62,248 nucleotides of DNA from a virus. Both the position numbers and the translations under genes were made by a program. The stretch spans positions 1 through 62,248 of the IMG/VR virus record IMGVR_UViG_3300028490_000008. The stretch is one strand, 5' to 3'. Below the pieces are notes generated by a model. It saw only the letters and a program-made list of their open reading frames with translations. It made no database searches and was not told where the DNA came from. Below are positions 20,727 through 44,367 of this stretch, piece after piece. Positions within the stretch are counted from its first letter, which is position 1; the number at the start of each line of letters is the position of its first letter.

Positions 20727-21509
20727 ATGCAGAACTTAACGGTATTTGATGGGGAGTTCAACCTCATCGGAGAGCTAGAAGATGATAAACACTTCGACCT
20801 AGCTCTCGAAATCAGCAACAAACTACAAGGCAAGGTTGAAGGCGTATCTGATGAGGCAGAGGATCTCCTATGGATAGAGCAACACCAAATGAGATACACC
20901 TTCATTAAGCTAATGCTGTTTGTAGATGCTGAGATAAACATAATTGCAGATGCAATGGACATGAAAGAAGAGCTTGTTACTGCCTACAAGAAGCTTTTCT
21001 TTGATGTACATAAGATCCGTGGTGGTCACTTAGGTCGTACTCAATTCTACGAAGACATATTCGCCAAGTACAATGAAGGGTCACAGGAGTTTGCTTTTGG
21101 TATAATGCTACGAGAAGCAAACTTAGGTGGTGAAGACATCATACTTGCTCAGTTCGACATCAACATGAGAGATATGTCAGTAACAAGATACAAAGACTTA
21201 TTGCAAAAGAAAGCCATCTGGCGTGAGAACATAGTGGAGCGTAGTGATGAACAAGACTATGATGCATTACATGCTGAGATGAAGTCAAGAGAGTCGGTTC
21301 TCAACCTTGTTACTAAGGCAACATCCAAGGATGATAAGGCTAAGATTTCTGATCTTGGTGCACTTGTTAGAGTTCTTGAGAGTATGAATAAAATGGATCT
21401 TGGGCGAGGTCAACTACAACTTCGTACTTATGATACAAAAACAGAGGAAGTGTTTGAGGCTGAATTGCTCGAACCACCTAAACAAACAGACAAAGAGGAG
21501 ATTGAATAA
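20727..21509 (+). CDS. Helical protein preceding the portal
   Basis: A 260-residue acidic, mainly helical product. It lies directly upstream of the portal and shares one base with it (TAATG). Small terminase subunits and head chaperones often sit here, but I see no DNA-binding motif that would settle it. The ATG follows GAGGGTAT. Confidence 0.65.
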   Translation: MQNLTVFDGEFNLIGELEDDKHFDLALEISNKLQGKVEGVSDEAEDLLWIEQHQMRYTFIKLMLFVDAEINIIADAMDMKEELVTAYKKLFFDVHKIRGGHLGRTQFYEDIFAKYNEGSQEFAFGIMLREANLGGEDIILAQFDINMRDMSVTRYKDLLQKKAIWRENIVERSDEQDYDALHAEMKSRESVLNLVTKATSKDDKAKISDLGALVRVLESMNKMDLGRGQLQLRTYDTKTEEVFEAELLEPPKQTDKEEIE

Positions 21510-23353
21510 TGGGTTCTACATTTAGCGGAAAATTATATGACAGAAGGTTTATGGGGAAGTACAACAACTTAAGTAGTATATATGCAGACATACTTCCTAA
21601 TGATATTAAAGAGGTTATACAGTGGTCGGAGTTTATCGTAGCCAATGTACCTCTTGTAGCATCAGCTCTGGACAAGATGTCGTCTGTTGCGATTACTTCA
21701 TTGCAGTATATGACTGATGACCTTAGTGAGATGACAACCAATGATGCTAAGTCTTGGAAAAGCATATTGGAAGAGAATATGGAAATAGAAGAGAAGTTGC
21801 AAGAGACTGGGTTCAACTACCTACTTAATGGTAATGTATTTTTGTCTGTATTCTTCCCTATACATAGAACAGTTACATGTATGAAGTGTAAGACAGAGTT
21901 GTCTCAAGACAGATTTACCTCTTCTAGTAGCCTGAAGCCTGAAATGGAAGAGATACTCATGCCTACCAATGGTAAGCGTGGGGGTAAGAAAGAAAAGGGC
22001 ACCAAGACCACAAAGAAGCAGAAAGTCTTAGTGTTCAAAGGTGGATGTCCTGCATGTGCCGCCAAGTCTATATTTACAATCAAAGATATCAAGGTCAAAG
22101 ATATGGGTGGTGTAAATATCGTAACATGGCCTATCAACAGTATAAACTTCGTAAGTGACAACATCACAGGTAGAAGTACATACTATTACCGAATGCCTAA
22201 TGCTAACCGTAAGATGATTACAGAGGGCTTCCTCGATATGATATTCCATCAACCATTGGACATGATAGAAGCAGCGGTGAAGAACACTACTGTCAAGTTT
22301 GACCAAGGTAAGGTGTTGCACCTACGAAGAAAGAAGATGTCTGGTACAAACACAGGATGGGGAATGCCTATCTTAACCTCATCGATACCAGAGATGATAT
22401 CACTACTCCTACTACGTAAGTCACAAGAGCGTATATTGTCAGACATGATCTTCCCTTTACGTGGACTATCACCTAAAGCAAGTGGCTCTGATGGTAATGC
22501 TGTATACAACTTTATGTCAGGTACAGACCTTAGTCAGAAAGTAGAGAACATGCTTAAGGGTCACAAGAATAACCCTACGAGTATCAAGTATTTCCCTATA
22601 CCACTAGACACAGTAACTGCATTTGGAGAGGGTAAGTCGCTGAACCTATCAGAGGAGATAGACCAAATCTCAACTATGATTATGACCTCTATTGGTGTAC
22701 CGATTGAATTCGTTAAGGGTGGACTGGGATACACCGCAGCCGGTGCGTCAATCCGTGTACTTGAAAATCAACTGATGGGTCTTACAAACTCAATGGAAAA
22801 GGTAGCCAATTTTGTTGCAAAGCAGATAGCAGTGTATACAGACAAGAAGCCTGTACATATTAAGATCGTACCATTCCGTATCATTGATGATATTGCAGAG
22901 AAGCAGATACTCATGAGCCTTTACCAAGGACAGAAGCTTTCAGATCATACTATGGCATCTATGTTCAAGTTGGATGCTACTACTGAGAATGAGCGTATGA
23001 GTGAAGAGATGAAGCAAGGTATACGTACGAGATCTGAACTTGAAGAGTATCAGCGTAACCTTGCACAGAACCTTGAGGAGAAAGCGAAGACTGAAGCAAT
23101 GCTCAGTACAAGCTCCACTCAACAGGTTAATCAGCAAGCTATTATGCAAGAGGCTGACCAGATGGCTGCACAACTCAATCAGATGGACTCTGGTATGAAG
23201 AAGTCAGAAATGGATCGTCTACAGAAAGAGAACTGGCTATTGTATGTTGCTACTAAGGAACGTATGGAGTTCAATGCTCAAAAGGACGCTACTTCCGCAG
23301 CTCATGACCAAAAAGCAGAAGAGATGGGCATGGCACCACAAGGACAACAGTAG
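21509..23353 (+). CDS. Portal protein with zinc-finger-like insertion
   Basis: A 614-residue protein with portal features: an N-terminal VPLVASALDKM region, a central LSEEIDQISTMIMTSIGVPIEFV segment followed by GGLGYTAAGASIRVLENQL (typical of the portal stem/clip region), and a Gln/Glu-rich helical C-terminus. The portal forms the ring through which DNA is packaged and to which the neck attaches. An unusual insertion carries C124-x2-C127 and C180-x2-C183, linked by a disordered Lys/Gly/Thr stretch, probably a zinc ribbon. No terminase is next to it in this window. Assignment rests on pattern and position. Confidence 0.7.
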   Translation: MGSTFSGKLYDRRFMGKYNNLSSIYADILPNDIKEVIQWSEFIVANVPLVASALDKMSSVAITSLQYMTDDLSEMTTNDAKSWKSILEENMEIEEKLQETGFNYLLNGNVFLSVFFPIHRTVTCMKCKTELSQDRFTSSSSLKPEMEEILMPTNGKRGGKKEKGTKTTKKQKVLVFKGGCPACAAKSIFTIKDIKVKDMGGVNIVTWPINSINFVSDNITGRSTYYYRMPNANRKMITEGFLDMIFHQPLDMIEAAVKNTTVKFDQGKVLHLRRKKMSGTNTGWGMPILTSSIPEMISLLLLRKSQERILSDMIFPLRGLSPKASGSDGNAVYNFMSGTDLSQKVENMLKGHKNNPTSIKYFPIPLDTVTAFGEGKSLNLSEEIDQISTMIMTSIGVPIEFVKGGLGYTAAGASIRVLENQLMGLTNSMEKVANFVAKQIAVYTDKKPVHIKIVPFRIIDDIAEKQILMSLYQGQKLSDHTMASMFKLDATTENERMSEEMKQGIRTRSELEEYQRNLAQNLEEKAKTEAMLSTSSTQQVNQQAIMQEADQMAAQLNQMDSGMKKSEMDRLQKENWLLYVATKERMEFNAQKDATSAAHDQKAEEMGMAPQGQQ

Positions 23354-26514: not shown

Positions 26515-26532
26515 AAAACTCTCCATTTTAGA

Positions 26533-26538
26533 TATACT
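26533..26538 (+). promoter_or_regulatory. Possible -10 box for the 26.6-31 kb operon
   Basis: TATACT in the context TTTTAGATATACTTAC, 34 bp before the ATG at 26573 and in a 58-bp gap. No clear -35. Confidence 0.35.
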
Positions 26539-26572
26539 TACACAATAAACAATTACCCTAAAGGAAAATGAA

Positions 26573-27622
26573 ATGCCTAAGAAACCAATCAACCTATACA
26601 AGAACCTACTTAGACCACTGTCTCACAGAGAGCTTGACGACAACTTCGTACAATTAGAGAGTCTATTAGAAGGCGATAGAAACAAGAATGTTATTGTTAT
26701 CCCTAACTCAGCAGAGAGAGGTGGGTACACATCATTACTCTCTCCAGTGTTCTTTGGTAACGGTATAGCTCCTGTGTCTATTGCGGACAACGGTAATGCT
26801 ACTGCTGGATTTGAGGAGTTTCAACGTGTATATTCCCTTTCGACAGGAGTGGATAAGTTGGTAGCTCATAAGTTTGAGCAGTCTCACATCTCACCAGATG
26901 GGGCGATGTATGCAGGGATGTATGAGAACAAGCTAGAGGTAGTAATAGTGGATGGGGGTCAGTCTACAACATTCAATCTTCCTCCTCAAAATGGAGATCC
27001 AGACAAGGGGTTACAGAAGGATATGTGGTGGATGTCGCCTACTGAGATTGTCGTTATAAGCTTTGAAGTACACGATGCAAGAATATACACCATAGATAAA
27101 GAGAATGTTGCAATCACAGAAAGAGATGTCTTTTCTAACATGATAGAGGACGATCACGAAGGATTTGTGAAAGGGAGACATTTGATAGCAAGTTCAGGGG
27201 ATACATCTAACGAGATAAGAATAGCAGACTTGTCTACAGGTGCATCATATACTGTCCCTAGTAAGCCTAATATGGGAACTGAGCAGTTCTATCAAATGAT
27301 GATGCTTGGCTTTGACGGAGATACACTATTGTCTTATGGTGTCATGGAAGATGCCAATGAGATTGCAGTACCTACAATAATGTCAGTTAATAGTAGTGGA
27401 GCGACCTTTATCAAGGCTGATAGCCCGAACCTTTTCTTAGGGGTTATAGGAGCTGATGCTATGCAGGAAAAAGCTACGATGAAAGAACTTATCATAGGCG
27501 GTAGGACATATTTTATCCTTGAGAAAGGGTATTTGGATGCAGTTCTTTTTGATGTAGAAGATAGAGTTATGTATACAGCCTCAGTGCTTGGTTCAAAGCT
27601 TGCTGTAAGAAACGAGGTGTAG
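26573..27622 (+). CDS. Putative tail-fibre/tail-tip protein
   Basis: A 349-residue product. Near the N-terminus RPLSHRELDDNFVQLESLL matches the L-[ST]-x2-E-x-D-x-NF-x2-L element commonly found at the start of phage tail-fibre and baseplate proteins. The rest is beta-rich and may form a propeller-like or receptor-facing domain (repeated SPDG/DGG turns). It heads the operon that ends in the two-component genes. An AAAGGAAA ribosome site precedes the ATG. Confidence 0.6.
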   Translation: MPKKPINLYKNLLRPLSHRELDDNFVQLESLLEGDRNKNVIVIPNSAERGGYTSLLSPVFFGNGIAPVSIADNGNATAGFEEFQRVYSLSTGVDKLVAHKFEQSHISPDGAMYAGMYENKLEVVIVDGGQSTTFNLPPQNGDPDKGLQKDMWWMSPTEIVVISFEVHDARIYTIDKENVAITERDVFSNMIEDDHEGFVKGRHLIASSGDTSNEIRIADLSTGASYTVPSKPNMGTEQFYQMMMLGFDGDTLLSYGVMEDANEIAVPTIMSVNSSGATFIKADSPNLFLGVIGADAMQEKATMKELIIGGRTYFILEKGYLDAVLFDVEDRVMYTASVLGSKLAVRNEV

Positions 27623-27623
27623 C

Positions 27624-28442
27624 ATGAATTGGGTAAGCACAGACGCAACGTCTAGTGGCTACGGAGTCCCTATTGTTGCCCCTACTGATGGACTAGAAAC
27701 AGATTGTGTCAAGAGAGAAGAAGTATCTACTGACATAAGCCCAGGTAGTACATGGACCAAAACTGTCGATGGGTATGATGAAGAAATCATAACTGAGGGC
27801 ACTGGCACTGGAACAGGGGAAACTTATTCTGCTCCGGGCTATGTGGAAAGTGGATATATAGAAGGTGGCTCTTGCCAACAAGAGGAACAATATGTCGCTG
27901 ATGGCTATGTAGCTTCTGGATACGTAGAAGGACAAGAAGCACCAGATGGTTACTACAAGAGTGGTTATGTCTCAGCAGGATATGCAGAGGGTGACACGCA
28001 GTCTGCTCCGAAGTATGTCGCTGACGGTTATGTCGCTGACGGTTATGTTGAAGGAAGCAGAACATCTGCACCTAAATATATGGCTGATGGTTACGTAGCT
28101 GATGGCTATGTAGAAGGAGGAGAGCCTGTTTGTACTATAGGAACTCCTGATGTGATAACTCACGTATGGCATCCTGCTGTATGGGAGAGATGGGTACTCG
28201 ATCCTGTTATAACACCATATGTACACAGTGCATATTTTGAGAGTGATGTTGTGTCTGTTGGTTGTCACCCATACAAGGAAGCAAAGCTAGATCCTTTTGA
28301 AGAGATGTACTTATTGTTCCCGTTCGGAGATACTGTTGCAGGCTTGCTAAAGAATAAGCAGTTGAGTTCAGAGTTTGGACTGAGAATGAGCATACAAGAC
28401 AGAGCTGACTTGGGCGAGAGAGTATTAGAGGGTGCAGTATGA
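27624..28442 (+). CDS. YVADGY tandem-repeat protein
   Basis: A 272-residue product. Residues about 69-170 hold five 19-21-residue units of the form YV-x2-GYV-x2-GYVEG plus a variable linker (for example YVADGYVADGYVEG at 131), with a finer period of five. The Tyr/Gly/Asp-rich repeats suggest an extended beta rod, adhesive or ion-binding stalk. The N-terminus contains poly-Thr/Gly (EGTGTGTGE). The C-terminal ~100 residues look folded. It is coupled to the next gene by ATGA and lies between a tail-fibre-like gene and the signalling genes, so an exposed sensor or fibre role is plausible (inference). Confidence 0.65.
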   Translation: MNWVSTDATSSGYGVPIVAPTDGLETDCVKREEVSTDISPGSTWTKTVDGYDEEIITEGTGTGTGETYSAPGYVESGYIEGGSCQQEEQYVADGYVASGYVEGQEAPDGYYKSGYVSAGYAEGDTQSAPKYVADGYVADGYVEGSRTSAPKYMADGYVADGYVEGGEPVCTIGTPDVITHVWHPAVWERWVLDPVITPYVHSAYFESDVVSVGCHPYKEAKLDPFEEMYLLFPFGDTVAGLLKNKQLSSEFGLRMSIQDRADLGERVLEGAV

Positions 28443-28942
28443 GTTTCATGAGTGTATTCACAGACAAGAAAGATGTACAGATTAAAGACGTAGAGAAGCT
28501 CATCAGAGAACTGAAAGATGTTCAGATGAGTATCGTTGCCTTTACTAATGACTACACTATTGACTCAGACATATCTGAAATGATAGGCAAGTTGAAGGCT
28601 CAAAACCCTAACGAACTTAGTGGTGAAACCATTATTGAGTTTCTGGTTTATCTTAGTGATAAGACGAAGACTAAGGGAGATATGACACAATCACACTATA
28701 CTGACACCATGATGAAAGTTGTTCACGCCAAATTGGAACTACTTGTCATATACCATACAGGATTAGTAAGAGGGAGTGTATTGAGACAGATATTTTCTGT
28801 ATCTACAATACTTCCAATAATCGTAGTGATAATGTTTGCTCTTGTTGCATTAGTAACAGTGCATAAGTTTGACCCTATGCTGTTCTCTGATATGGGACTT
28901 ACCAACAAACAACATACACACACAAAAGGTGGTACGAAGTGA
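28439..28942 (+). CDS. Single-pass membrane protein linked to a two-component system
   Basis: A 167-residue product with a hydrophilic helical N-terminal region (1-115), one strong transmembrane helix at about 119-141 (STILPIIVVIMFALVALVTV) and a short His/Lys-rich tail (TNKQHTHTKGGTK). It is coupled upstream by ATGA and downstream by GTGA to the receiver gene. It could be an accessory subunit of the histidine kinase or a membrane anchor; no family recognised. Confidence 0.7.
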   Translation: MSFMSVFTDKKDVQIKDVEKLIRELKDVQMSIVAFTNDYTIDSDISEMIGKLKAQNPNELSGETIIEFLVYLSDKTKTKGDMTQSHYTDTMMKVVHAKLELLVIYHTGLVRGSVLRQIFSVSTILPIIVVIMFALVALVTVHKFDPMLFSDMGLTNKQHTHTKGGTK

Positions 28943-29574
28943 TTTCATTTTTCAAAGACTTATTTAGCGGTACATCAGAAGATACAGATGTAGATGAGGA
29001 CAAGCTTGACTCTGTTAAGAACAAGATGACAATACGTCTATCTGATACAAAGACTCCTTCATTAGATTACCCAAGAGGGTTCGATGCGAACAAGCCAACG
29101 ATTGTAATCCTAGATGACAGTTCTGGAGCCACTTTGTTGTTTGATGACAATATTAAAGAGTTGCAAGCAGAAGGTGGTCTTGCAGCAGAACTACAGTTCC
29201 TCAAGGTGAGCACACCACAGGCTGTTTTTATGCTCCGAGGGGAATTGGATAAGGGAAGACTAAATAACATCGTAGGGGCTGTGCTAGACATCACTATAGG
29301 CGGATATGCTATCGTTGATGGACACACTGTGATACTTGACGGGATAGATGCACATAAAATCATAAGTGACAGATTTCCAAAGGCTGCTATGAGGTTCTTT
29401 ACATCTCACTCAATGAACGAGAAGAATGCAGAGATATATAGGTTCATGAAGAAGTATGAAGAGTATGCAGGCGAGAGCATTGTAGAGAAGACATACATGA
29501 AGAACCCTTTCACTACGAACCGTATAGATATGCTTAGGGATATTCTAGGGGAAATAAATGATGTTAAGAGTTAG
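28939..29574 (+). CDS. Stand-alone response-regulator receiver protein
   Basis: A 211-residue protein with a receiver (REC) domain after a ~50-residue leader. Conserved positions are all visible: the acidic pair D59/D60 in TIVILDDSS, the phospho-acceptor D117 in GAVLDITIGG, T155 in MRFFTSHS and K188 in YMKNPF. An extra ~10-residue segment follows D117 (GYAIVDGHTV). No DNA-binding or enzymatic output domain follows, so it would act as a single-domain regulator or phosphate sink. The start is GTG overlapping the previous stop; it overlaps the kinase gene by 17 nt. Confidence 0.75.
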   Translation: MISFFKDLFSGTSEDTDVDEDKLDSVKNKMTIRLSDTKTPSLDYPRGFDANKPTIVILDDSSGATLLFDDNIKELQAEGGLAAELQFLKVSTPQAVFMLRGELDKGRLNNIVGAVLDITIGGYAIVDGHTVILDGIDAHKIISDRFPKAAMRFFTSHSMNEKNAEIYRFMKKYEEYAGESIVEKTYMKNPFTTNRIDMLRDILGEINDVKS

Positions 29575-30961
29575 AGCCTTTGCTGATCCGGAGAGTTTAT
29601 CGTTTGTTGCCAAGTTCTTCATTGTATTTGCTATTGCATATGCATTCGTCGTAACAGTTGCCTTCTACTTCATCCTTGGTGAGTGGAGGACATATGCACA
29701 AAGCACAGTGTCCACTGTGTCAATAGCGAACAACGGTTCTATAACTGAGACGTGTGAGATACTTAACTGTGCATATTTTGATGTAGACGGGGTTAGAGTA
29801 TATCACCAAAAGAACGGTGAGTATACAGAGCTTGCACATAAAAATGTAGGGTTTACAGATTTAATCGAAGACCTATTGGTGATACCAGTAGAAACAAAAG
29901 ACCACTCAGTTACACTTGGTCTATCTGTCAGAAGCCTGTGTACATTCTATACAAACACAATTCTCACCTTGTATGTTTTCCTTATGGTGCTGTCACTTAT
30001 CTTTCTTATGCGATATCTTATAAGCAGTAATATAAAGTCTCTCAAAGACGGGGCAAGCAACACTGCATCCCTGCATAATAAGAATATGTCAATGCTTGCA
30101 GAGCAGTTACATCACGAGCTGAACACTCCTCTGTCTGTAGTGAAAGAACTGTGCGACAAAGTGTTCTCTAATATGGAGGTAGCATCTACTTGTAATAGAG
30201 TTGACAAAGGCTCGTCGCCATGTACCTCTTGCACAATGCCTGAGAAGTTTGCAGAGATGTCAAACTTCAAGAGGATAATAGATAACAATATCAGACAGGC
30301 TTTCGTATTTATAGAGAGAATGGCTGATGTTAAACAGATACGATACTCAAATGGTAACAAGAGTATATACGACATAGCCAAAGCCACCTTTGACATAATG
30401 GGTGTATACAATAGGACAAACTATACATACGATATAGATGTGTCCCTACGTAATTACAGAATAGACCATGGGTCAGGGCTCAAAAACCATGAGCTTATGA
30501 ACATCTTGGTTAATCATATAAAGAACTCGCTAGAAGCAGGGTCTTGTCATATCGTTGTGTCTCTGAATAAAGTTGTACACTACAAGATGAATAGACTAGA
30601 CAGAAGCCTAGCAAAGGCTATTGATTTCCTAAGCACTCATGATTTAGGCGTAGGTACACCACTTGCAATAGTGATACTGTATAAGTTCATGTCAACAAAG
30701 GCGAGACACAACACTAAGCTTGCACGAGTTGCACTTATTGACAACGGAACAGGTATACCAGAGGAGTTCCAAAGTAAGATATTCAACTTGAATTCATCAA
30801 CCAAGAAGAAGAATGGTGTTATTCGTGGAGCAGGTCTATATCTCAACAGAGAGATACTTAGGGACTCAAGAGGTGATCTTTGGTTACATAAGACAAACAA
30901 GACTGGAACCACGTTTATACTAGATGTTCCCTGTGAGCAAGTCCCTAGCAGATTTGCATAA
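29558..30961 (+). CDS. Membrane sensor histidine kinase
   Basis: A 467-residue transmembrane kinase. TM1 is at about 16-40 and TM2 at 132-152, with a ~90-residue external sensor carrying C66 and C71. The DHp helix has the phospho-acceptor H186 in HHELNTPLSVV. The ATP-binding domain shows the N-box (N319, N323 in LVNHIKNSLEAG), the G1 box D395 in LIDNGTGIPEEF, a G2 box GAGLYL (424-429) and G3-like KTGTTFIL. Odd features are a Cys cluster inside the DHp region (C212, C222, C225) and ~35 extra residues between N-box and G1. It would phosphorylate the adjacent receiver. ATG 29558 or 29561 follows AGGGGA. Confidence 0.88.
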   Translation: MMLRVRAFADPESLSFVAKFFIVFAIAYAFVVTVAFYFILGEWRTYAQSTVSTVSIANNGSITETCEILNCAYFDVDGVRVYHQKNGEYTELAHKNVGFTDLIEDLLVIPVETKDHSVTLGLSVRSLCTFYTNTILTLYVFLMVLSLIFLMRYLISSNIKSLKDGASNTASLHNKNMSMLAEQLHHELNTPLSVVKELCDKVFSNMEVASTCNRVDKGSSPCTSCTMPEKFAEMSNFKRIIDNNIRQAFVFIERMADVKQIRYSNGNKSIYDIAKATFDIMGVYNRTNYTYDIDVSLRNYRIDHGSGLKNHELMNILVNHIKNSLEAGSCHIVVSLNKVVHYKMNRLDRSLAKAIDFLSTHDLGVGTPLAIVILYKFMSTKARHNTKLARVALIDNGTGIPEEFQSKIFNLNSSTKKKNGVIRGAGLYLNREILRDSRGDLWLHKTNKTGTTFILDVPCEQVPSRFA

Positions 30962-31013: not shown

Positions 31014-32351
31014 ATGCCAAACGCAGAAATGGTAGCCTTGCTACAACACTTAATGGCGATCTCTGGTGCCCATACAGGTACAGCGATCAAAAACGCTATA
31101 GACAATCTTGTCGGAACACATGATATTGATGTCGATGCTTTACAAGCGAAGATCCAGGTAATTCAAGACATTCTTGATGCTGACCCTTCGACACCGGAGT
31201 TTGACCAAGCTCAGAACATCATCACATCACTTAATGCAATCCTTGCTCGTCTTTCAGCAGTAGAAACAACTATTGCTCGCTTAGAGGGTGACGAAACAGT
31301 TGCAGGTTCAGTAGACTTTAAAGTAGCGGCTGAGAGAGCACGTGCAATGGCGGCTGAACAAGCTAACGCTGCATGTTGTTCAACTAACGGTACTGCACTT
31401 GCTGCACACATCGCTGCATACGACACATTCGTTACAGCAACAAATGCATCACTTACAACTCTTGCATCTGATGTTGCAGACAATACTCAAGCTATCACTG
31501 ATGAGGTTGCTCGTGCAACTGCTGCTGAAACAGCTATCAATGATGCTCTTGCAGCTATTCAGACTGCAACTGGTGCTTCTGATGCTGACCTTGCTGACCT
31601 TACTACTCTCGTTGGAGACATTGTAACTGGTACAGGGCTTAATGCTGATGGTTCGTTTACACCAGACACCGCAGCTTCAGATGCAACAAACCTATACGAG
31701 TACATTCATGATGTAACTGCTGAAGGTGCTGACCGTGCGAATACACTACGTAGAGCAATCAGACGTCTAGCACGTAAGTCTCGTCTTGCTGATAATGCAC
31801 TTGATGCACGTCTTGACATTCTTGAAGGTGACGCAACTGTCGCTGGTTCAATTATGCAAATCGTTACTGATGCAGTTGCTACTGAAGAGACTAGAGCACT
31901 AGCGGCTGAAGCTGTACTTGCTCAAGCTGTTGCAGATGAGGAAACTCGTGCTACTGCTGCTGAAGTTGCATTACAGGCTCAGATCGATAGTCTTTCTGGT
32001 GGTGGTTCTGGTTCTATCCAGGGTGTCCGTGATGAACTTGACGATACACAAGTAGGTGCAGGTCTTGAAGCTGATGGTTCATATGCACCAGATGCTACAA
32101 CTGAGTACCTTGGTTCAGCTACATCTTTAAAAGATGCTGACAAGAAACTTGACGTAGAGATTAAAGGTCTTGAAGATCGCAAGGCTGACCGTACAGAAGT
32201 TGTATTGTCTGCTGATATCGCATCTATCGACTTCTCTGCTCTAGGTACAATCTTCTTAGATGCACTTAACTGTGGACTTACAGGTGGGACAGATTGTGAC
32301 GTAGTTACAACTACTCCTGCAGGTGGTGGCGGTGACGGTGCAGTTCTATAA
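31014..32351 (+). CDS. Coiled-coil fibre/decoration protein, probably abundant
   Basis: A 445-residue Ala/Asp/Thr-rich protein. Two copies of LEGD-x-TVAGS (near residues 90 and 270) introduce long alanine-rich coiled coils (AERARAMAAEQANA, EETRATAAEVALQAQ). Two GxGLxADGSxxPD motifs and a SATSLKDADKKLD segment are typical of phage fibre and structural proteins. The C-terminus is Gly-rich (AGGGGDGAVL). Strong codon bias, its own promoter and a hairpin behind it suggest high expression. Confidence 0.7.
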   Translation: MPNAEMVALLQHLMAISGAHTGTAIKNAIDNLVGTHDIDVDALQAKIQVIQDILDADPSTPEFDQAQNIITSLNAILARLSAVETTIARLEGDETVAGSVDFKVAAERARAMAAEQANAACCSTNGTALAAHIAAYDTFVTATNASLTTLASDVADNTQAITDEVARATAAETAINDALAAIQTATGASDADLADLTTLVGDIVTGTGLNADGSFTPDTAASDATNLYEYIHDVTAEGADRANTLRRAIRRLARKSRLADNALDARLDILEGDATVAGSIMQIVTDAVATEETRALAAEAVLAQAVADEETRATAAEVALQAQIDSLSGGGSGSIQGVRDELDDTQVGAGLEADGSYAPDATTEYLGSATSLKDADKKLDVEIKGLEDRKADRTEVVLSADIASIDFSALGTIFLDALNCGLTGGTDCDVVTTTPAGGGGDGAVL

Positions 32352-32410: not shown

Positions 32411-32962
32411 ATGAAGAGAATGGTGCTTTTTTCTGGAGGCGTAGACTCAACAGCTCTGCTTTTACAAGAGCTTGAGAGTGGTAGTGATGTCCTGGTGGTT
32501 CATCTTATACTCAAGACAGAAACAAATAGATGGCAACTAGAGATGGTTGCTTGTGCAAGAGTGATAGCAGAACTACACGCACGAGGGTATGACTTTGAAT
32601 ATATGGATGTGACAGTAGATGCAACCGCAATGGGTGGAGGTAGAGACAGTTGGTATTATATCCAAACAGCAGCTAATATTGCCAGAAACAGAGAAGACAT
32701 TATTGCTGTAGCTGTAGGGTTTATAGATGACGAGGCAGAAGCTATAGCCTTCCCTCAAACCATAAACAACACCGAGCTTTTCAGAGGTTGCAAGGGGACA
32801 AGTTGTGCTGAACTTACATATCCTCTTGCAGGCAAAACAAAGAAAGAGCTTATCGCTAAAATGGGTAATCTCTTTGAATGCACGTTCTCTTGCAGGGTTC
32901 CCGTAGGCATAGAGCCATGTGGACAATGCAATACTTGCAAAGCCATTAAAGAAGCATTGTAG
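32411..32962 (+). CDS. queC: 7-cyano-7-deazaguanine synthase (QueC-like)
   Basis: A 183-residue PP-loop enzyme. The ATP-binding SGGVDS motif is at 8-13 and the zinc site C161-x8-C170-x2-C173-x2-C176 has the spacing I recall for bacterial QueC. QueC converts carboxy-deazaguanine to preQ0 using ATP and ammonia. Phages use preQ0 and derivatives to replace guanine in DNA and evade restriction. It is shorter than typical QueC (about 220-230). The other pathway genes (folE, queD, queE, a DNA transglycosylase) are not in this window, so they must lie elsewhere or come from the host. AGGAGGTG precedes the ATG. Confidence 0.85.
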   Translation: MKRMVLFSGGVDSTALLLQELESGSDVLVVHLILKTETNRWQLEMVACARVIAELHARGYDFEYMDVTVDATAMGGGRDSWYYIQTAANIARNREDIIAVAVGFIDDEAEAIAFPQTINNTELFRGCKGTSCAELTYPLAGKTKKELIAKMGNLFECTFSCRVPVGIEPCGQCNTCKAIKEAL

Positions 32963-33022: not shown

Positions 33023-34108
33023 ATGCCATACCTAGCACCAACAGCAAGCGTAAATAACTTGTTAGTAAACGAAGTATCAAATGACGCAACATTCACAGCA
33101 CCAGAGACAGGAATATACCTAGTTTCTTCTTTAAAGATAGAAAGTGGGAGCACAGATGGATCTGGCAACCTTACAATGGAAGCAACTGCAGGTGGAACAT
33201 CTGTCCCTACTATGGACGGAGTAGCTCCAACTACAACTGGTGATGTTCTACTTTCTAAGTATCACTTCACTAAAGATACAGAATATACAATCATGGGGTC
33301 TGGTTCAAGACTTACGTGTATGATTGCTCACTCTGCATATTTTACAGACAGAACAGATAAAGGTTCAGAGCTTACATTTGATGAAATGGATGAGAACTTT
33401 ACTCTTGGTGCGATTGCTCTTGATAAGATTGAGAAGGAAATGGGCACAGCTCTATTAAAGCAAGCTAAGCCAGATGTTGTTATCGACTTATTCAATGGTA
33501 TCAGTGAAGAGCAACTCACAGTATCTACAGGGCACGACCTTATGCTTGGTGTAGATGACAACGGTGCTATCGGTTGGGGTAGAATTGTATCTTCTGAAGG
33601 TGACTACAACTTCTCTGTCACTAGAGAAATCAGTATTGACCTAGAAGAGGACTTGGATGCAATGCATGGCCCTATCACTCTTCACCACGATGGAGAGACG
33701 GGATACTTCCTTAAGTGTAACAAGAAGTATAATGATGGATATGGAAACATTGCGTGGAGTGGCTCGGCTACTATCTCTAATGGGGATCTTATTGCGAGAC
33801 TAATGGAAGAGTTGACGCTTGCTGAAGTAAACAAGCTTAACTACTCAAGACCATACTCTGTATGTGTTGCTAGAGTTAACGACCATACGAAGTCAGGACT
33901 AGGACTGTGTGTTGTTAATAACCTAGACACTGGCGTACCAACACCGGTAGTATTTGAGGCAAGAGAGACATCGGCTTATTTCAATAGAGTGCTTACAACT
34001 CTTGCATACGAAGTTAATAGCTACAACTACCCTATTAAAAGATGGTGTGCTCTTGGTCTTGATGAGTATGAGAATATTACTTTTGACCCAACTTCTCCGG
34101 CAGCCTAA
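33023..34108 (+). CDS. Putative structural (tail or decoration) protein
   Basis: A 361-residue product. The N-terminal ~110 residues are beta-rich with ATFTAPETGIYLVSS, a C1q/fibre-head-like strand pattern. GSELTFDEMDENFTLGAIAL, around residue 115, is another variant of the L-T-x-[DE]-E-x-[DE]-x-NF fibre element. The remainder is unrecognised. AAAGGAAC precedes the ATG and the stop overlaps the glycosyltransferase start. Confidence 0.6.
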   Translation: MPYLAPTASVNNLLVNEVSNDATFTAPETGIYLVSSLKIESGSTDGSGNLTMEATAGGTSVPTMDGVAPTTTGDVLLSKYHFTKDTEYTIMGSGSRLTCMIAHSAYFTDRTDKGSELTFDEMDENFTLGAIALDKIEKEMGTALLKQAKPDVVIDLFNGISEEQLTVSTGHDLMLGVDDNGAIGWGRIVSSEGDYNFSVTREISIDLEEDLDAMHGPITLHHDGETGYFLKCNKKYNDGYGNIAWSGSATISNGDLIARLMEELTLAEVNKLNYSRPYSVCVARVNDHTKSGLGLCVVNNLDTGVPTPVVFEARETSAYFNRVLTTLAYEVNSYNYPIKRWCALGLDEYENITFDPTSPAA

Positions 34109-34740
34109 TGAGGCACGATAACCTCACTGCGGTTATCCCTCACTACAACACCCCAAAGTCCCTCCTTGCGAGGGCAATAAAATCCCTTGACAAATATGGA
34201 ATAAAGTATATCATCGTAGATGATGGCAGCGACGAAAAGCATAAGGCTGGACTACTGCAATACAAAGATAGAGTTATATTCCTGAAAGAGAATAAGGGAC
34301 AGGGGTATGCTAATTATGTGGGATTTTATGCCGTAGAGACAAAGTGGGCAATGAGAATGGACAGTGATGATTACCTCACGACAGATCCATCTTATGATGA
34401 TGAGGCAGTTGTGCATACACAAGCATCTATATACCCACAGCCAAAATCAGCAAACGAGTTGTTTGCGAAGCCATATGCTTATTTAGCCGGTGCTGTTGCA
34501 AGATCATCTGTGTATGTAAAAGTGTACTCTGACATAGTGTCGGTTAGGATGATGGAAGATATAGAAGCCATGGGTAACATGTTTGGTAACAATATGACAA
34601 TGAAGCACCATGACACTATATGGTATGCATACGAGAGTAAAAGAGAAGGTAGTGTGACAGGAAGTAGAACTCCAGGTGAATGCAGTGCTATCAAAAAGAA
34701 GATAATCAAGGCTCACGCTTTAAAATTCAAGACTAGGTAA
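34108..34740 (+). CDS. GT2-family glycosyltransferase
   Basis: A 210-residue GT-A fold transferase: VIPHYNTPKSLLARAI at the N-terminus, the nucleotide-sugar motif IIVDDGSDE (37-43), NKGQGYANYVGF and the metal-binding DSDD (85-88). It is short, lacking a clear acceptor domain. It would glycosylate phage DNA bases, a virion protein or host surface polysaccharide; its coupling (TAATG) to the structural gene upstream favours a virion target, but that is inference. Confidence 0.85.
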   Translation: MRHDNLTAVIPHYNTPKSLLARAIKSLDKYGIKYIIVDDGSDEKHKAGLLQYKDRVIFLKENKGQGYANYVGFYAVETKWAMRMDSDDYLTTDPSYDDEAVVHTQASIYPQPKSANELFAKPYAYLAGAVARSSVYVKVYSDIVSVRMMEDIEAMGNMFGNNMTMKHHDTIWYAYESKREGSVTGSRTPGECSAIKKKIIKAHALKFKTR

Positions 34741-40131: not shown

Positions 40132-43100
40132 ATGACAAGTTTAAATAGAGACCACAACGAGCTTAACTCAGCGATGAGAACAGAAGTTACAAAAGCTTTT
40201 GAGGGCAAGAAAGTTGAAGGTAAATACAAGTCTCTATTGTATTCCAATGTGACACCACAAAAAACAGACGAGTCTTTTAGAAAGTTGACATCGACTATTA
40301 ATAGTGGTGGAACAATGGCACAAAAATACAAGGCTGACATAACAATCCTAGACAACGAAACAGGAAAGGTTGTAGACCATAAAAAAGGTGTACATATTGG
40401 AGACGTACCTCTATATACCAAGAAAGGTGGTTTCGTAATTGATGGGAACACATATAACCTTCCTAACCAAATCAGACTTAAGCCAGGGGCGTACACTCTC
40501 AATAAAGCCAATGGTGATGTAGAGACCATGATGAACGTGAAGAATGGTACAGGAATGAAGCTAGTGTCTCCACAGGATAAGGATGATGTAAAGCTACAGA
40601 TTGGATCACGTCAATTTAACCCGTTGGATGTCGCTAAGATACTTGGTGCATCAGACAAAGAGATTGATGGGACGATAGGTAAGGATGTGGCTACCCATTT
40701 GCGAAAGAAGTCGAATGTTGAAGGTACAGCTCTGAAGCTTTCTCAGACTCTTGGTCTTACTGGTCCAGACATAACTCCTCCCCATAAAGAAATCATGGTT
40801 GGTCTTACTGACTACTTTAAAAAGACAGAGCTAGACCCTAGTGTAACAGAACATACACTCGGCAAGGCAACCACAACTGTAGATAAAAACACAATGTTGT
40901 TGAGTATCAAGCGAAACGTGGGAGTTAAGCGTGGCACAGAAGAAGAAGATGACAAAGAAAATCTCATGTTCAAACAAATCATCACTCCAGAGAAGCTACT
41001 TGTAGAAGGCGTAGCGAGGGACATTCGTAAGCCTGAAGCTAGAATGAAAGGGTTACTAAACAACCCGTTTCAAAAGGTTACTGTTGGTGAGATAATGAAA
41101 GAGCCTACACTCAAACATGCAGCCAAGACTTTCTTAACCACAAGTGCAATATCAAGAATGCCTGAAGAGTACAATCCATTGCAGACACTACAAGGTGGTA
41201 GCGATATTACTCCTATGGGTGAGGGTGGAATTACATCTACCGAAATGATTACTCCGTCTGTGCGTTCCTTGCATTTATCTCAGCTTGGGTTTATTGATCC
41301 TATTAAGTCACCAGAAGGTGCAAATACAGGTGTAACACTCAGCACAACACATGGAGCATTCGTTGATAGTAAAGGAAATGCTTCTTTGCGTGTAAAGAAC
41401 CTTAAGACAGGAAAGTCAGAGGTTAAAACTGTAGGCGAACTATGGAAGAAGAAGATAGCATTCCCAGACCCTAAAAAGAATGGTGAGGTAGGAATACGTC
41501 AGGGCTCAGATATGACGGTGGGTAACATCAAGCATGCTGACTATCAGATAGTTGACTCAGAGGACATCTACGGGCCAGCAATGAACGCTCTTGGCATAAT
41601 AAGCTCAAACGACCCAACAAGAAACCTAATGGCGTCCAAGCATGTGTTACAAGCCTTACCCTTAGTGGATGCTGATGCTAACCCTGTAAGTCTGAAGGGT
41701 AAAGATGGACAAAGTCTATTGAAGAGACTTGCCAATTCGCATTTACCTACATCTAAGTTTGATGGTAAAGTGAGTAGAGTAGATACAAGAGCCGGGAAAA
41801 TACACTATACTGACACGTCTGGCAAAGAGCATATGGAAGATTATGCCGTAGACCCAATGCAACTGAACACTAAGACATTCATAAGTCATAAGCCTATAGT
41901 GAAGGCAGGGGATAAGATATCAAAAGGACAAGCCCTCGCTGACTCTAACTTCTCAAAAAATGGAGAGCTTGCAATAGGCAAGAACCTTAGAACTGCATGG
42001 ATGATGTATCCAGGTACACGTAATGATGCGTTTGTTGTATCCGAGAGTGCAGCGAAGAAGCTTACATCCGTCCATTCATCTAAGTTTGATATAGATGGCA
42101 CAAAAGGTACAATCCTAGACAAAAAGAAGTTTGCTGCAATGTTCCCTGAAGTTGTAAAGAAGTTGGATCTATCTAAGTATGGTGACAATGGGGTTATGCT
42201 GAAGGGACAGTCTGTAGTCAAAGATGAACCTATCGTATTAGGCATGAAAAAGATGGACCCGTCAGAAGTTAGATTTGCAAACGACAAAGTGAAGAAACTG
42301 TTGTACGGAGGAATGGCACCAGTGATGCAGAAGTGGAAGGGTGACAATACAGGTGTTGTTACAAGTGTGTCAACCAAAGGCTCGCAGCATAGAGTCATCG
42401 CTGAATACAAAGCACCTCTTATCAAGGGTGACAAGATAGCAGGGCGTAGTGGGAATAAAGGTATTATATCAGCCGTAATTCCAGACAATGATATGCCTAG
42501 AGACGAGAAGGGAAATCCTATCGATGTAATACTCGGTGGTGCAGGTGTAAACTCAAGACAAAACCCAGCTCAGATTATCGAGGCTTCTTTGAGTGAGACG
42601 GCGAAAAAGACAGGAAAGCCGTATGTCCTTCCTCACTATACTCATAATGATCTTAGGAATTTTGCGAACGATGAAGCTAAGAAGAATGGGGTGAAGCTAT
42701 ATCACAAGGTATACGACCCATTAAGAAAGGTTACGCTGAAGCAACCTGTGTTTGTAGCAGACTATAACATCATGAAACTGTTCAAGCAAGGGGAAGGGAC
42801 ATACTCTGCAATAGGGCATGGACCAGTAGATGCTCTTAACCAACCTAAAAAGGGTGGGAAAGAGTCTGCAGCTTCTGTATCCAATATGGAAATAAATGCA
42901 CTTCTTGCACATGATGCACGAGATTTTCTTAGAGAAGTAGGGACAGTAAAGTCTCAGCGAAACCAAAAGTGGTTCTCTGCTTTTGAAGCCGGTGGTATTC
43001 CTCCTGCACCAGAGAGAAAGTCTGCGAGAGACAATTTCCATGGTCTTCTTAATCAGATGAATATACAAGTCAGAGAAGACGGAAACAGAAGACATATCTT

Positions 43101-44367
43101 GCCTCTATTGGATAAGGATGTAGTAAAGAGAAGTAGTGGTGTAGTAAATGAGCCTTTTGGTCTTAAACGAAACACTATGGACCCTGTAGCAGGCGGCTTT
43201 TATGATACGAGTATATTCGGTGGTCACGGTGAGAACTATGGGCATATTGATTTAGGTGTAAAAGTAATCAATCCACTGTATAAGAAACCTGTAGCTGCAC
43301 TCATGGGTGTAACAGAGAAGGGACTAGATAGTCATATTGCAGAACATGGAATTGACAGTGTGTATAAAAAGATAAGTGGGGCTAGAATAAAACCTACAAT
43401 TAAACACATGAAAGATATGATTAAGCGTACGAAAGACACAGCTAAGGCAGACAGAGCAATGAAAGCCATCAAGTCTTTAAAGAAGATAGATGGTCTAGGT
43501 GAGAACCCTGCAGACGTTATGTTTATGTCAAAAGTGTCAGTGCTTCCTGTTAAGATGAGACCTCCGTCAAAAATGCCAGACGGAAGTATTATTGAGCATG
43601 ATGTAAATAATCACTATTCAAATATTGCTAGATCTGCAAATCAGATAAAAAAACTAGATAAAGATGTACCTGCTTCTCTAAGGAACAGATTACACAGTGA
43701 ATTGCAGGCACACGTAGGGGCTATGTTTGGAACAAATGTATCTCCTGACCCAAAGATGATTAGAAAAGAGACAAAGAGTGTTATGGACATAGTGTCTGGA
43801 GCGAACCCTAAGACATCGTTTTGGCACCAGAAGATACTAAAGAATAAAGTCTTTGGTTCCGGTAGAGCTGTTATTGTTCCTCACACAAAGTCTTTAGGTA
43901 TGGACCAGGTAGAAATACCAAAGCATGTAGCTTGGAGTGCATTTCAGCCCCACGTTACTAGGAAGATGTCACAAATGGGTATCCCTAACGACAGAGCAAA
44001 AGAAATGATAGAGCAAAGAAACGAGACTGCCACAAATGTTCTTACTCAAGTAATGAAGGATGTACCTGTAGTTATTAACAGAGCACCTGCATTGCACAAG
44101 CATAATATGACAGGCCACTATGCTAAAATCTCAGGTGGAAATGTAATGCATATACCACCAGAGATAGAGAATGGACAGAACGCAGATTATGATGGCGACC
44201 AACTTGCAATACACGTTCCATTTGGACAAAAAGCAATCCATGATGTGAAGACAAAGCTTATGGCATCTAAGCAGTTGTTTACTGACTCGGCAAAAAAAGG
44301 TCTTACTATGGGTATAGATCTTGACCCTTTTATTGGGTTCTATGATGCAACAAAGAAAGGAAGATAG
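40132..44367 (+). CDS. RNA polymerase beta/beta-prime (N-terminal) fusion
   Basis: A 1411-residue single chain. Beta landmarks: IGDVPLYTKKGGFVIDGN near residue 100, IDPIKSPEGANTG (SPEG at 393), GDKIAGRSGNKG (766-777) followed by DMPRDEKGNPIDVIL, and the C-terminal clamp GGKESAASVSNMEINALLAHDA with GTVKSQRNQ. Beta-prime then begins without a stop: FYDTSIFGG-x-GENYGHIDLG (about 1023-1041), SVLPVKMRPPSKMPDG, VINRAPALHKHNMTG (1314 on) and the Mg-binding NADYDGD (1350-1356). It ends ~55 residues later at a point matching GLYYMT in bacterial beta-prime, so bridge helix and trigger loop are absent and must be encoded elsewhere. Virion packaging is possible. Confidence 0.92.
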   Translation: MTSLNRDHNELNSAMRTEVTKAFEGKKVEGKYKSLLYSNVTPQKTDESFRKLTSTINSGGTMAQKYKADITILDNETGKVVDHKKGVHIGDVPLYTKKGGFVIDGNTYNLPNQIRLKPGAYTLNKANGDVETMMNVKNGTGMKLVSPQDKDDVKLQIGSRQFNPLDVAKILGASDKEIDGTIGKDVATHLRKKSNVEGTALKLSQTLGLTGPDITPPHKEIMVGLTDYFKKTELDPSVTEHTLGKATTTVDKNTMLLSIKRNVGVKRGTEEEDDKENLMFKQIITPEKLLVEGVARDIRKPEARMKGLLNNPFQKVTVGEIMKEPTLKHAAKTFLTTSAISRMPEEYNPLQTLQGGSDITPMGEGGITSTEMITPSVRSLHLSQLGFIDPIKSPEGANTGVTLSTTHGAFVDSKGNASLRVKNLKTGKSEVKTVGELWKKKIAFPDPKKNGEVGIRQGSDMTVGNIKHADYQIVDSEDIYGPAMNALGIISSNDPTRNLMASKHVLQALPLVDADANPVSLKGKDGQSLLKRLANSHLPTSKFDGKVSRVDTRAGKIHYTDTSGKEHMEDYAVDPMQLNTKTFISHKPIVKAGDKISKGQALADSNFSKNGELAIGKNLRTAWMMYPGTRNDAFVVSESAAKKLTSVHSSKFDIDGTKGTILDKKKFAAMFPEVVKKLDLSKYGDNGVMLKGQSVVKDEPIVLGMKKMDPSEVRFANDKVKKLLYGGMAPVMQKWKGDNTGVVTSVSTKGSQHRVIAEYKAPLIKGDKIAGRSGNKGIISAVIPDNDMPRDEKGNPIDVILGGAGVNSRQNPAQIIEASLSETAKKTGKPYVLPHYTHNDLRNFANDEAKKNGVKLYHKVYDPLRKVTLKQPVFVADYNIMKLFKQGEGTYSAIGHGPVDALNQPKKGGKESAASVSNMEINALLAHDARDFLREVGTVKSQRNQKWFSAFEAGGIPPAPERKSARDNFHGLLNQMNIQVREDGNRRHILPLLDKDVVKRSSGVVNEPFGLKRNTMDPVAGGFYDTSIFGGHGENYGHIDLGVKVINPLYKKPVAALMGVTEKGLDSHIAEHGIDSVYKKISGARIKPTIKHMKDMIKRTKDTAKADRAMKAIKSLKKIDGLGENPADVMFMSKVSVLPVKMRPPSKMPDGSIIEHDVNNHYSNIARSANQIKKLDKDVPASLRNRLHSELQAHVGAMFGTNVSPDPKMIRKETKSVMDIVSGANPKTSFWHQKILKNKVFGSGRAVIVPHTKSLGMDQVEIPKHVAWSAFQPHVTRKMSQMGIPNDRAKEMIEQRNETATNVLTQVMKDVPVVINRAPALHKHNMTGHYAKISGGNVMHIPPEIENGQNADYDGDQLAIHVPFGQKAIHDVKTKLMASKQLFTDSAKKGLTMGIDLDPFIGFYDATKKGR

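Follow-up and report, generated by a model that had tools for sequence, protein, structure and literature searches.

Three overlapping genes in a virus record of 62,248 nucleotides (IMGVR_UViG_3300028490_000008, referred to here in its entirety as the window) are genuinely phage-encoded and conserved in a second phage, and they are predicted to specify a sensor histidine kinase, a divergent receiver and a membrane partner. A first-pass annotation of the DNA had described three open reading frames at 28439-30961 joined by GTGA and by 17 nt, and both the positions and the overlaps were borne out:

28439..28942, plus strand: p167, a membrane protein of 167 aa (open reading frame call, hydropathy)
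28939..29574, plus strand: divergent, single-domain receiver of 211 aa with a GTG start, its gene overlapping that of p167 by 4 nt (GTGA)
29558..30961, plus strand: histidine kinase of 467 aa, its gene overlapping that of the receiver by 17 nt

An obvious objection to any signalling genes in a virus record is that the segment is host DNA, present as contamination or in a chimera. This explanation was rejected because the window is fully syntenic with a second virus contig, IMGVR_UViG_3300033146_004128 (187,664 bases), whose genes from 46 to 112 kb correspond one by one to those of the window and which carries the trio inside the same syntenic cluster; the base composition of the trio is also like that of the rest of the phage. 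The second contig encodes homologues of the large terminase and major capsid protein of Salmonella phage Arash, together with Arash-like ribonucleotide reductase and RNA polymerase subunits, and two landmark genes of the window itself are:

21509-23353: portal homologue, about 27% identical to that of Vibrio phage D181 and 25% to that of Arash
40132-44367: RNA polymerase beta-like gene of the multi-subunit type

Judged by these genes, the phage belongs to a new lineage of large tailed phages that encode an RNA polymerase of their own, with Salmonella phage Arash and Vibrio phages D181, D148 and D69 as distant relatives.

The search for the same gene pair elsewhere that the first-pass annotation had proposed was successful, since in the second virus the three genes of the trio follow one another in identical order and overlap by 4 and 14 nt. 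Between the two phages p167, the receiver and the kinase are 57, 63 and 56% identical respectively, and non-synonymous differences amount to 0.25-0.30 per site, compared with a saturated 0.73-0.78 for synonymous differences. The trio, which is known from two genomes only, has been maintained under selection in a second phage that is diverged from the first. Two less similar relatives, contigs of 97 kb and 165 kb, were found by way of the portal (65% identical); they share the portal, a VRR-NUC-like nuclease and homologues of the 148- and 174-aa genes, their RNA polymerase beta is 60-63% identical, and the interval from the nuclease to the next conserved genes is occupied in them by other open reading frames. 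No HATPase_c domain was found in either contig, both of which may be incomplete but cover the slot itself, and neither the trio nor its upstream neighbours p349 and p272 gave a significant match there (the best, at E=0.017, was at chance level). Similarly, the whole genomes of Arash and D181 yielded no HATPase_c domain and no match to the receiver. The kinase and receiver genes are therefore linked and co-inherited, being in the same order with overlaps in two viruses and both absent in the relatives. Scans of viral contigs with the receiver, kinase, p167 and VRR-NUC as queries returned nothing or IMGVR_UViG_3300033146_004128 again, but such scans need exact short peptides, and the single-sequence kinase query missed the known relative, so distant copies may escape them.

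On this distribution the trio is an insert specific to one lineage, optional and lodged in a variable slot. The first-pass description of the surroundings as a structural operon holds to the extent that the trio lies between the portal homologue and the RNA polymerase beta-like gene, but the stretch is variable and contains accessory genes. Because accessory genes occupy the neighbouring slots and the slot is filled otherwise in the relatives, a more accurate description is a stretch of variable, accessory genes within a portal-to-RNA polymerase cluster. The accessory genes include the VRR-NUC-like gene and the following:

32411-32962 and 34108-34740: QueC-like and family-2 glycosyltransferase genes

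In IMGVR_UViG_3300033146_004128 the same stretch encodes a Stealth-CR2-like protein and a radical SAM protein. A separate observation concerns p445 (31014-32351), an alanine-rich, coiled-coil-like protein that is 89% identical between the two phages; its third-position GC of 0.23 is unusual and its synonymous difference of 0.55 is unsaturated, which suggests that it may be under very high expression or extra constraint.

In both carrier phages the trio closes a tightly packed five-gene unit, 26573-30961, which begins as follows:

26515..26572, plus strand: gap of 58 nt before the unit, containing TATACT (five of the six positions of TATAAT)
26573..27622, plus strand: p349, first gene of the unit
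27624..28442, plus strand: p272, second gene of the unit, overlapping the p167 gene by 4 nt

Both upstream proteins evolve fast, with identities between the two phages of about 22% for p349 and about 40% for p272. Near its N-terminus p349 carries PLSHRELDDNF, which we take to be a fibre-like motif, and p272, directly upstream of the trio, contains repeated DGYVxxGYVEG motifs. With regard to transcription, a perfect TATAAT occurs in 12 of the 22 intergenic gaps scanned in the gene clusters of both phages (window 15881-47158 and the corresponding gaps of its relative), in most cases 28-57 nt upstream of the following start, which per-gap shuffles reach in about 3-19% of cases; it is often preceded by TG and there is no clear -35. 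The recurring TATAAT is probably a phage promoter class, and the TATACT before the five-gene unit is a weak promoter candidate, not significant when taken alone.

The kinase had been described as possessing two transmembrane helices, H186, an N-box and the motifs DNGTGIP and GAGLYL, and all of these are present, the helices by hydropathy:

Residues 22-40 and about 133-151: transmembrane helices TM1 and TM2 (hydropathy)
Residues about 43-125: predicted periplasmic domain, with the invariant C66/C71
H186 in HELNTPL: phospho-acceptor, predicted by alignment
C212/C222/C225: cysteine loop between the two phospho-acceptor helices
N323: N-box
Residues 395-401: G1 box, DNGTGIP
Residues 424-429: G2 box, GAGLYL

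A multiple alignment lines up the H, N, G1 and G2 boxes with those of PhoR, EnvZ and AtoS of E. coli K-12, and a profile-profile comparison of the ATPase domain with the same three proteins gave E=7.7e-9 (a one-template comparison). The profile searches suggested in the first-pass annotation supported its assignments in part. Of the two outcomes that it had named as telling against it, host origin of the segment is excluded by the synteny and a lack of profile matches is excluded for the kinase. The kinase matches Pfam HATPase_c at E=1.5e-9 and 38.7 bits, above the cut-off of 26.4, and its counterpart in the relative does so at E=1.6e-11 and 45 bits, but the match to HisKA (E=0.21, residues 179-196) falls below the cut-off and Response_reg was not matched by the receiver. 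The match to PHROG 857 (histidine kinase) was weak, at 5.6e-5, and searches for a full-length bacterial relative found none, with weak matches at the level of the ATPase. Two inserts are present, one of about 30 residues with the three cysteines between the phospho-acceptor helices and another of about 45 residues between the N and G1 boxes. A structure model of the kinase was set aside as too poor (pLDDT 42). On the basis of its motifs, the kinase appears to have everything needed for autophosphorylation.

Conservation of the kinase between the two phages is markedly uneven. Identity reaches 88% and 93% in the helices around H186 (173-204 and 237-265), 84% around the N-box and 74% across the G1-G2 region, compared with 29% for the predicted periplasmic domain, 31% for the cysteine loop and 35% for the second insert. 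All catalytic positions are invariant, and so are C66/C71 and C212/C222/C225, which lie inside stretches otherwise about 30% identical. This pattern is as would be expected from selection on catalysis combined with an adapting sensor.

The receiver is a less straightforward case. It has no match in Pfam at E<=1, Response_reg included, no significant match in PHROG, with none to PHROG 731 (PhoB-like), and nothing significant in a sequence search of the PDB; comparison of its profile with five E. coli receivers was likewise not significant (E=0.074, probability 0.8%). An AF2 model (mean pLDDT 71, with residues 1-37 at low confidence) has the order b1-a1-b2-a2-b3-a3-b4-a4-b5-a5, which is the (beta-alpha)5 fold, with a beta hairpin at 121-134 just past D117. 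When this model was compared with the PDB by Foldseek, the best matches were nearly all receivers, with a probability of 1.0, the top matches including 2qxy (E=1.1e-5) and Spo0F, 6ifh (4.3e-5). The residues that had been named from the sequence are all present, are invariant in the second virus and fall in the model as follows:

D59/D60: acidic pair, end of b1
D117: predicted phospho-acceptor, end of b3
T155: end of b4
K188: just after b5

The phosphorylation face (109-146, the hairpin and its flanks) is 82% conserved. K188 is followed by N-P-F, so that the proline is not adjacent and the K-N-P spacing is unusual, and the model contains no DNA-binding output domain. The second open reading frame of the trio is thus predicted, from a model of moderate confidence, to be a receiver-fold protein beyond profile detection. 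Its upstream partner p167 had been called a single-pass membrane protein, and hydropathy agrees, giving one C-terminal transmembrane helix (123-141) and a soluble N-terminal domain; family searches of Pfam and PHROG with p167 gave no significant match.

The kinase and receiver are predicted, with considerable confidence, to form an active pair, and the trio probably constitutes a membrane two-component switch of the phage's own that lacks a DNA-binding output. From what is known of the family, the kinase would dimerise via the helix carrying H186, the HATPase_c domain would use ATP for autophosphorylation of H186 under the control of the periplasmic domain, and the phosphoryl group would then be passed to D117 of the receiver. 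As a protein that lacks a DNA-binding domain and is co-translated with one located in the membrane, the phosphorylated receiver may work through contacts with other proteins there, p167 being the likeliest of these. That protein is the nearest candidate target since it is co-translated and equally conserved, though its identification as the target rests on gene linkage and is put forward tentatively. The input may be an envelope signal, possibly redox or metal, as is suggested by the conserved periplasmic cysteine pair and the three loop cysteines. The output could be a phage-specific process during infection, for instance the timing of lysis, the exclusion of another phage or the state of the envelope. 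The fact that a second, distant virus keeps all three genes with their catalytic residues intact suggests that the phage senses something during infection. It is conceivable, if speculative, that the kinase, the output-less receiver and p167, as a membrane effector without cellular counterpart, make up a dedicated three-part viral circuit that reads an envelope signal and adjusts the late programme.

An important consideration is whether the same genes could serve some other end. They might act on two-component proteins of the host: either host kinases would lose phosphoryl groups to the receiver, or host regulators would be phosphorylated or dephosphorylated by the kinase. Bacterial single-domain receivers do serve as phosphate sinks or relay parts, and the phage receiver has no output domain either, but a simple sink would have no need of its own co-translated kinase and the phage receiver is very diverged from cellular receivers; such rewiring of the host is considered unlikely. 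It is more doubtful still that the trio is a component of the virion or of ejection, packaged or injected so as to form a membrane complex where entry takes place as infection begins. The five-gene unit does open with p349, the gene with the fibre-like motif, and does lie between the portal and RNA polymerase genes, but two of the three trio proteins are membrane-bound, which is uncommon in tailed virions, and the relatives retain virion genes without the trio.

Very little probability is attached to a degenerate or non-signalling system, in which a GHKL ATPase and a receiver-like fold have been reused without His-Asp phosphotransfer. The absence of a REC profile match, the K-N-P spacing and the sub-threshold HisKA match would all fit such a reading, but the catalytic residues are all invariant at an overall identity of about 60% and no part is more conserved than the phospho-acceptor helices.

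The first-pass annotation had considered a phage kinase-receiver pair to be without precedent, which is too strong. Microcoleus phage My-WqHQDG (OR578706.1, 88856-91414), a partial genome from river water, has one kinase gene and two receiver genes flanked by genes of phage replication. Like the window, it joins a phage histidine kinase gene to genes for single-domain receivers by short overlaps, the receivers here coming right after the kinase, but the kinase is a canonical PAS-HisKA-HATPase protein, there are two receivers, which are profile-detectable, the set adjoins primase and PIF1-like genes and no p167-like partner is established. Among the records inspected it is one credible precedent for a phage-encoded kinase-receiver set and, because it stands, the pair in the window is not the first of its kind. 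Two other phage systems bear some resemblance. Clostridioides difficile phage phiCDHM1 has a gene for an HATPase_c histidine kinase as part of AgrC/AgrB/AgrD, but the system is of the quorum-sensing type, its genes were proposed to be host-derived and no response regulator was found in its genome (PMC3901668). The cREC domains of jumbo phages are also divergent receiver-fold proteins, but they are reported never to occur in two-component histidine kinase systems and to be linked to NAD/ADP-ribose enzymes (PMC7824862), whereas the receiver gene of the window overlaps that of a kinase and the protein falls outside the cREC definition. With PhoR-PhoB, EnvZ-OmpR and AtoS-AtoC the phage pair shares the H, N, G1 and G2 boxes of a membrane kinase and the acidic pair, D, T and K of a receiver, but unlike these orthodox bacterial systems it has a receiver beyond profile detection and without a DNA-binding output, and a kinase with a cysteine-containing insert and a further insert of about 45 aa between the N and G1 boxes.

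Two-component proteins are already represented among phage and prophage records by PHROG 731 and 857, and E. coli PhoB, PhoR, CheY and the AtoS kinase core each match 107-223 deposited phage records. Many of the matches listed are fragments without annotation or long contigs of bacterial appearance, and of the remaining two-component genes that were inspected in deposited 'phage' records, most resemble host DNA or mobile elements. A possible precedent in Stenotrophomonas phage Bhz63 (a response regulator with a CreC-like protein) was rejected, as the 'kinase' (OR797046.1, 38236-39066) has no HATPase_c domain and contains VTGVQTCALPI, presumably a translated Illumina adapter, so that the end of the record looks chimeric. 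Listeria phages LM 4-11-1 and LM 4-14-1, Acinetobacter phage MD-2021a and MW462191 were set aside as looking like host DNA, and the pair in Streptococcus phi-SgaBSJ31_rum sits beside a Tn5252-like relaxase and a recombinase. In 'Microcystis phage MaAM05' (MW495066.1, 223830-236090) a kinase is surrounded by coaE, aspS, rnhC and sigE and the region looks bacterial, while the 735-kb uncultured phage LR756503.1 contains a kinase-like open reading frame of 737 aa with a second of 737 aa nearby on the opposite strand. A phrase search on phage-encoded kinases and two-component systems found no paper in the literature collection that it covered.

What is distinct about the present system is a receiver beyond profile detection, a membrane partner, a cysteine loop and a setting between portal and RNA polymerase genes in a new lineage of large phages. 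That phages modify the two-component systems of their hosts is established; if the reading of the trio as a signalling switch is true, a phage would make decisions during infection via its own phosphosignalling, with a complete membrane kinase-receiver pair under purifying selection and a fast-changing sensor, and that pair is small enough for direct work in vitro.
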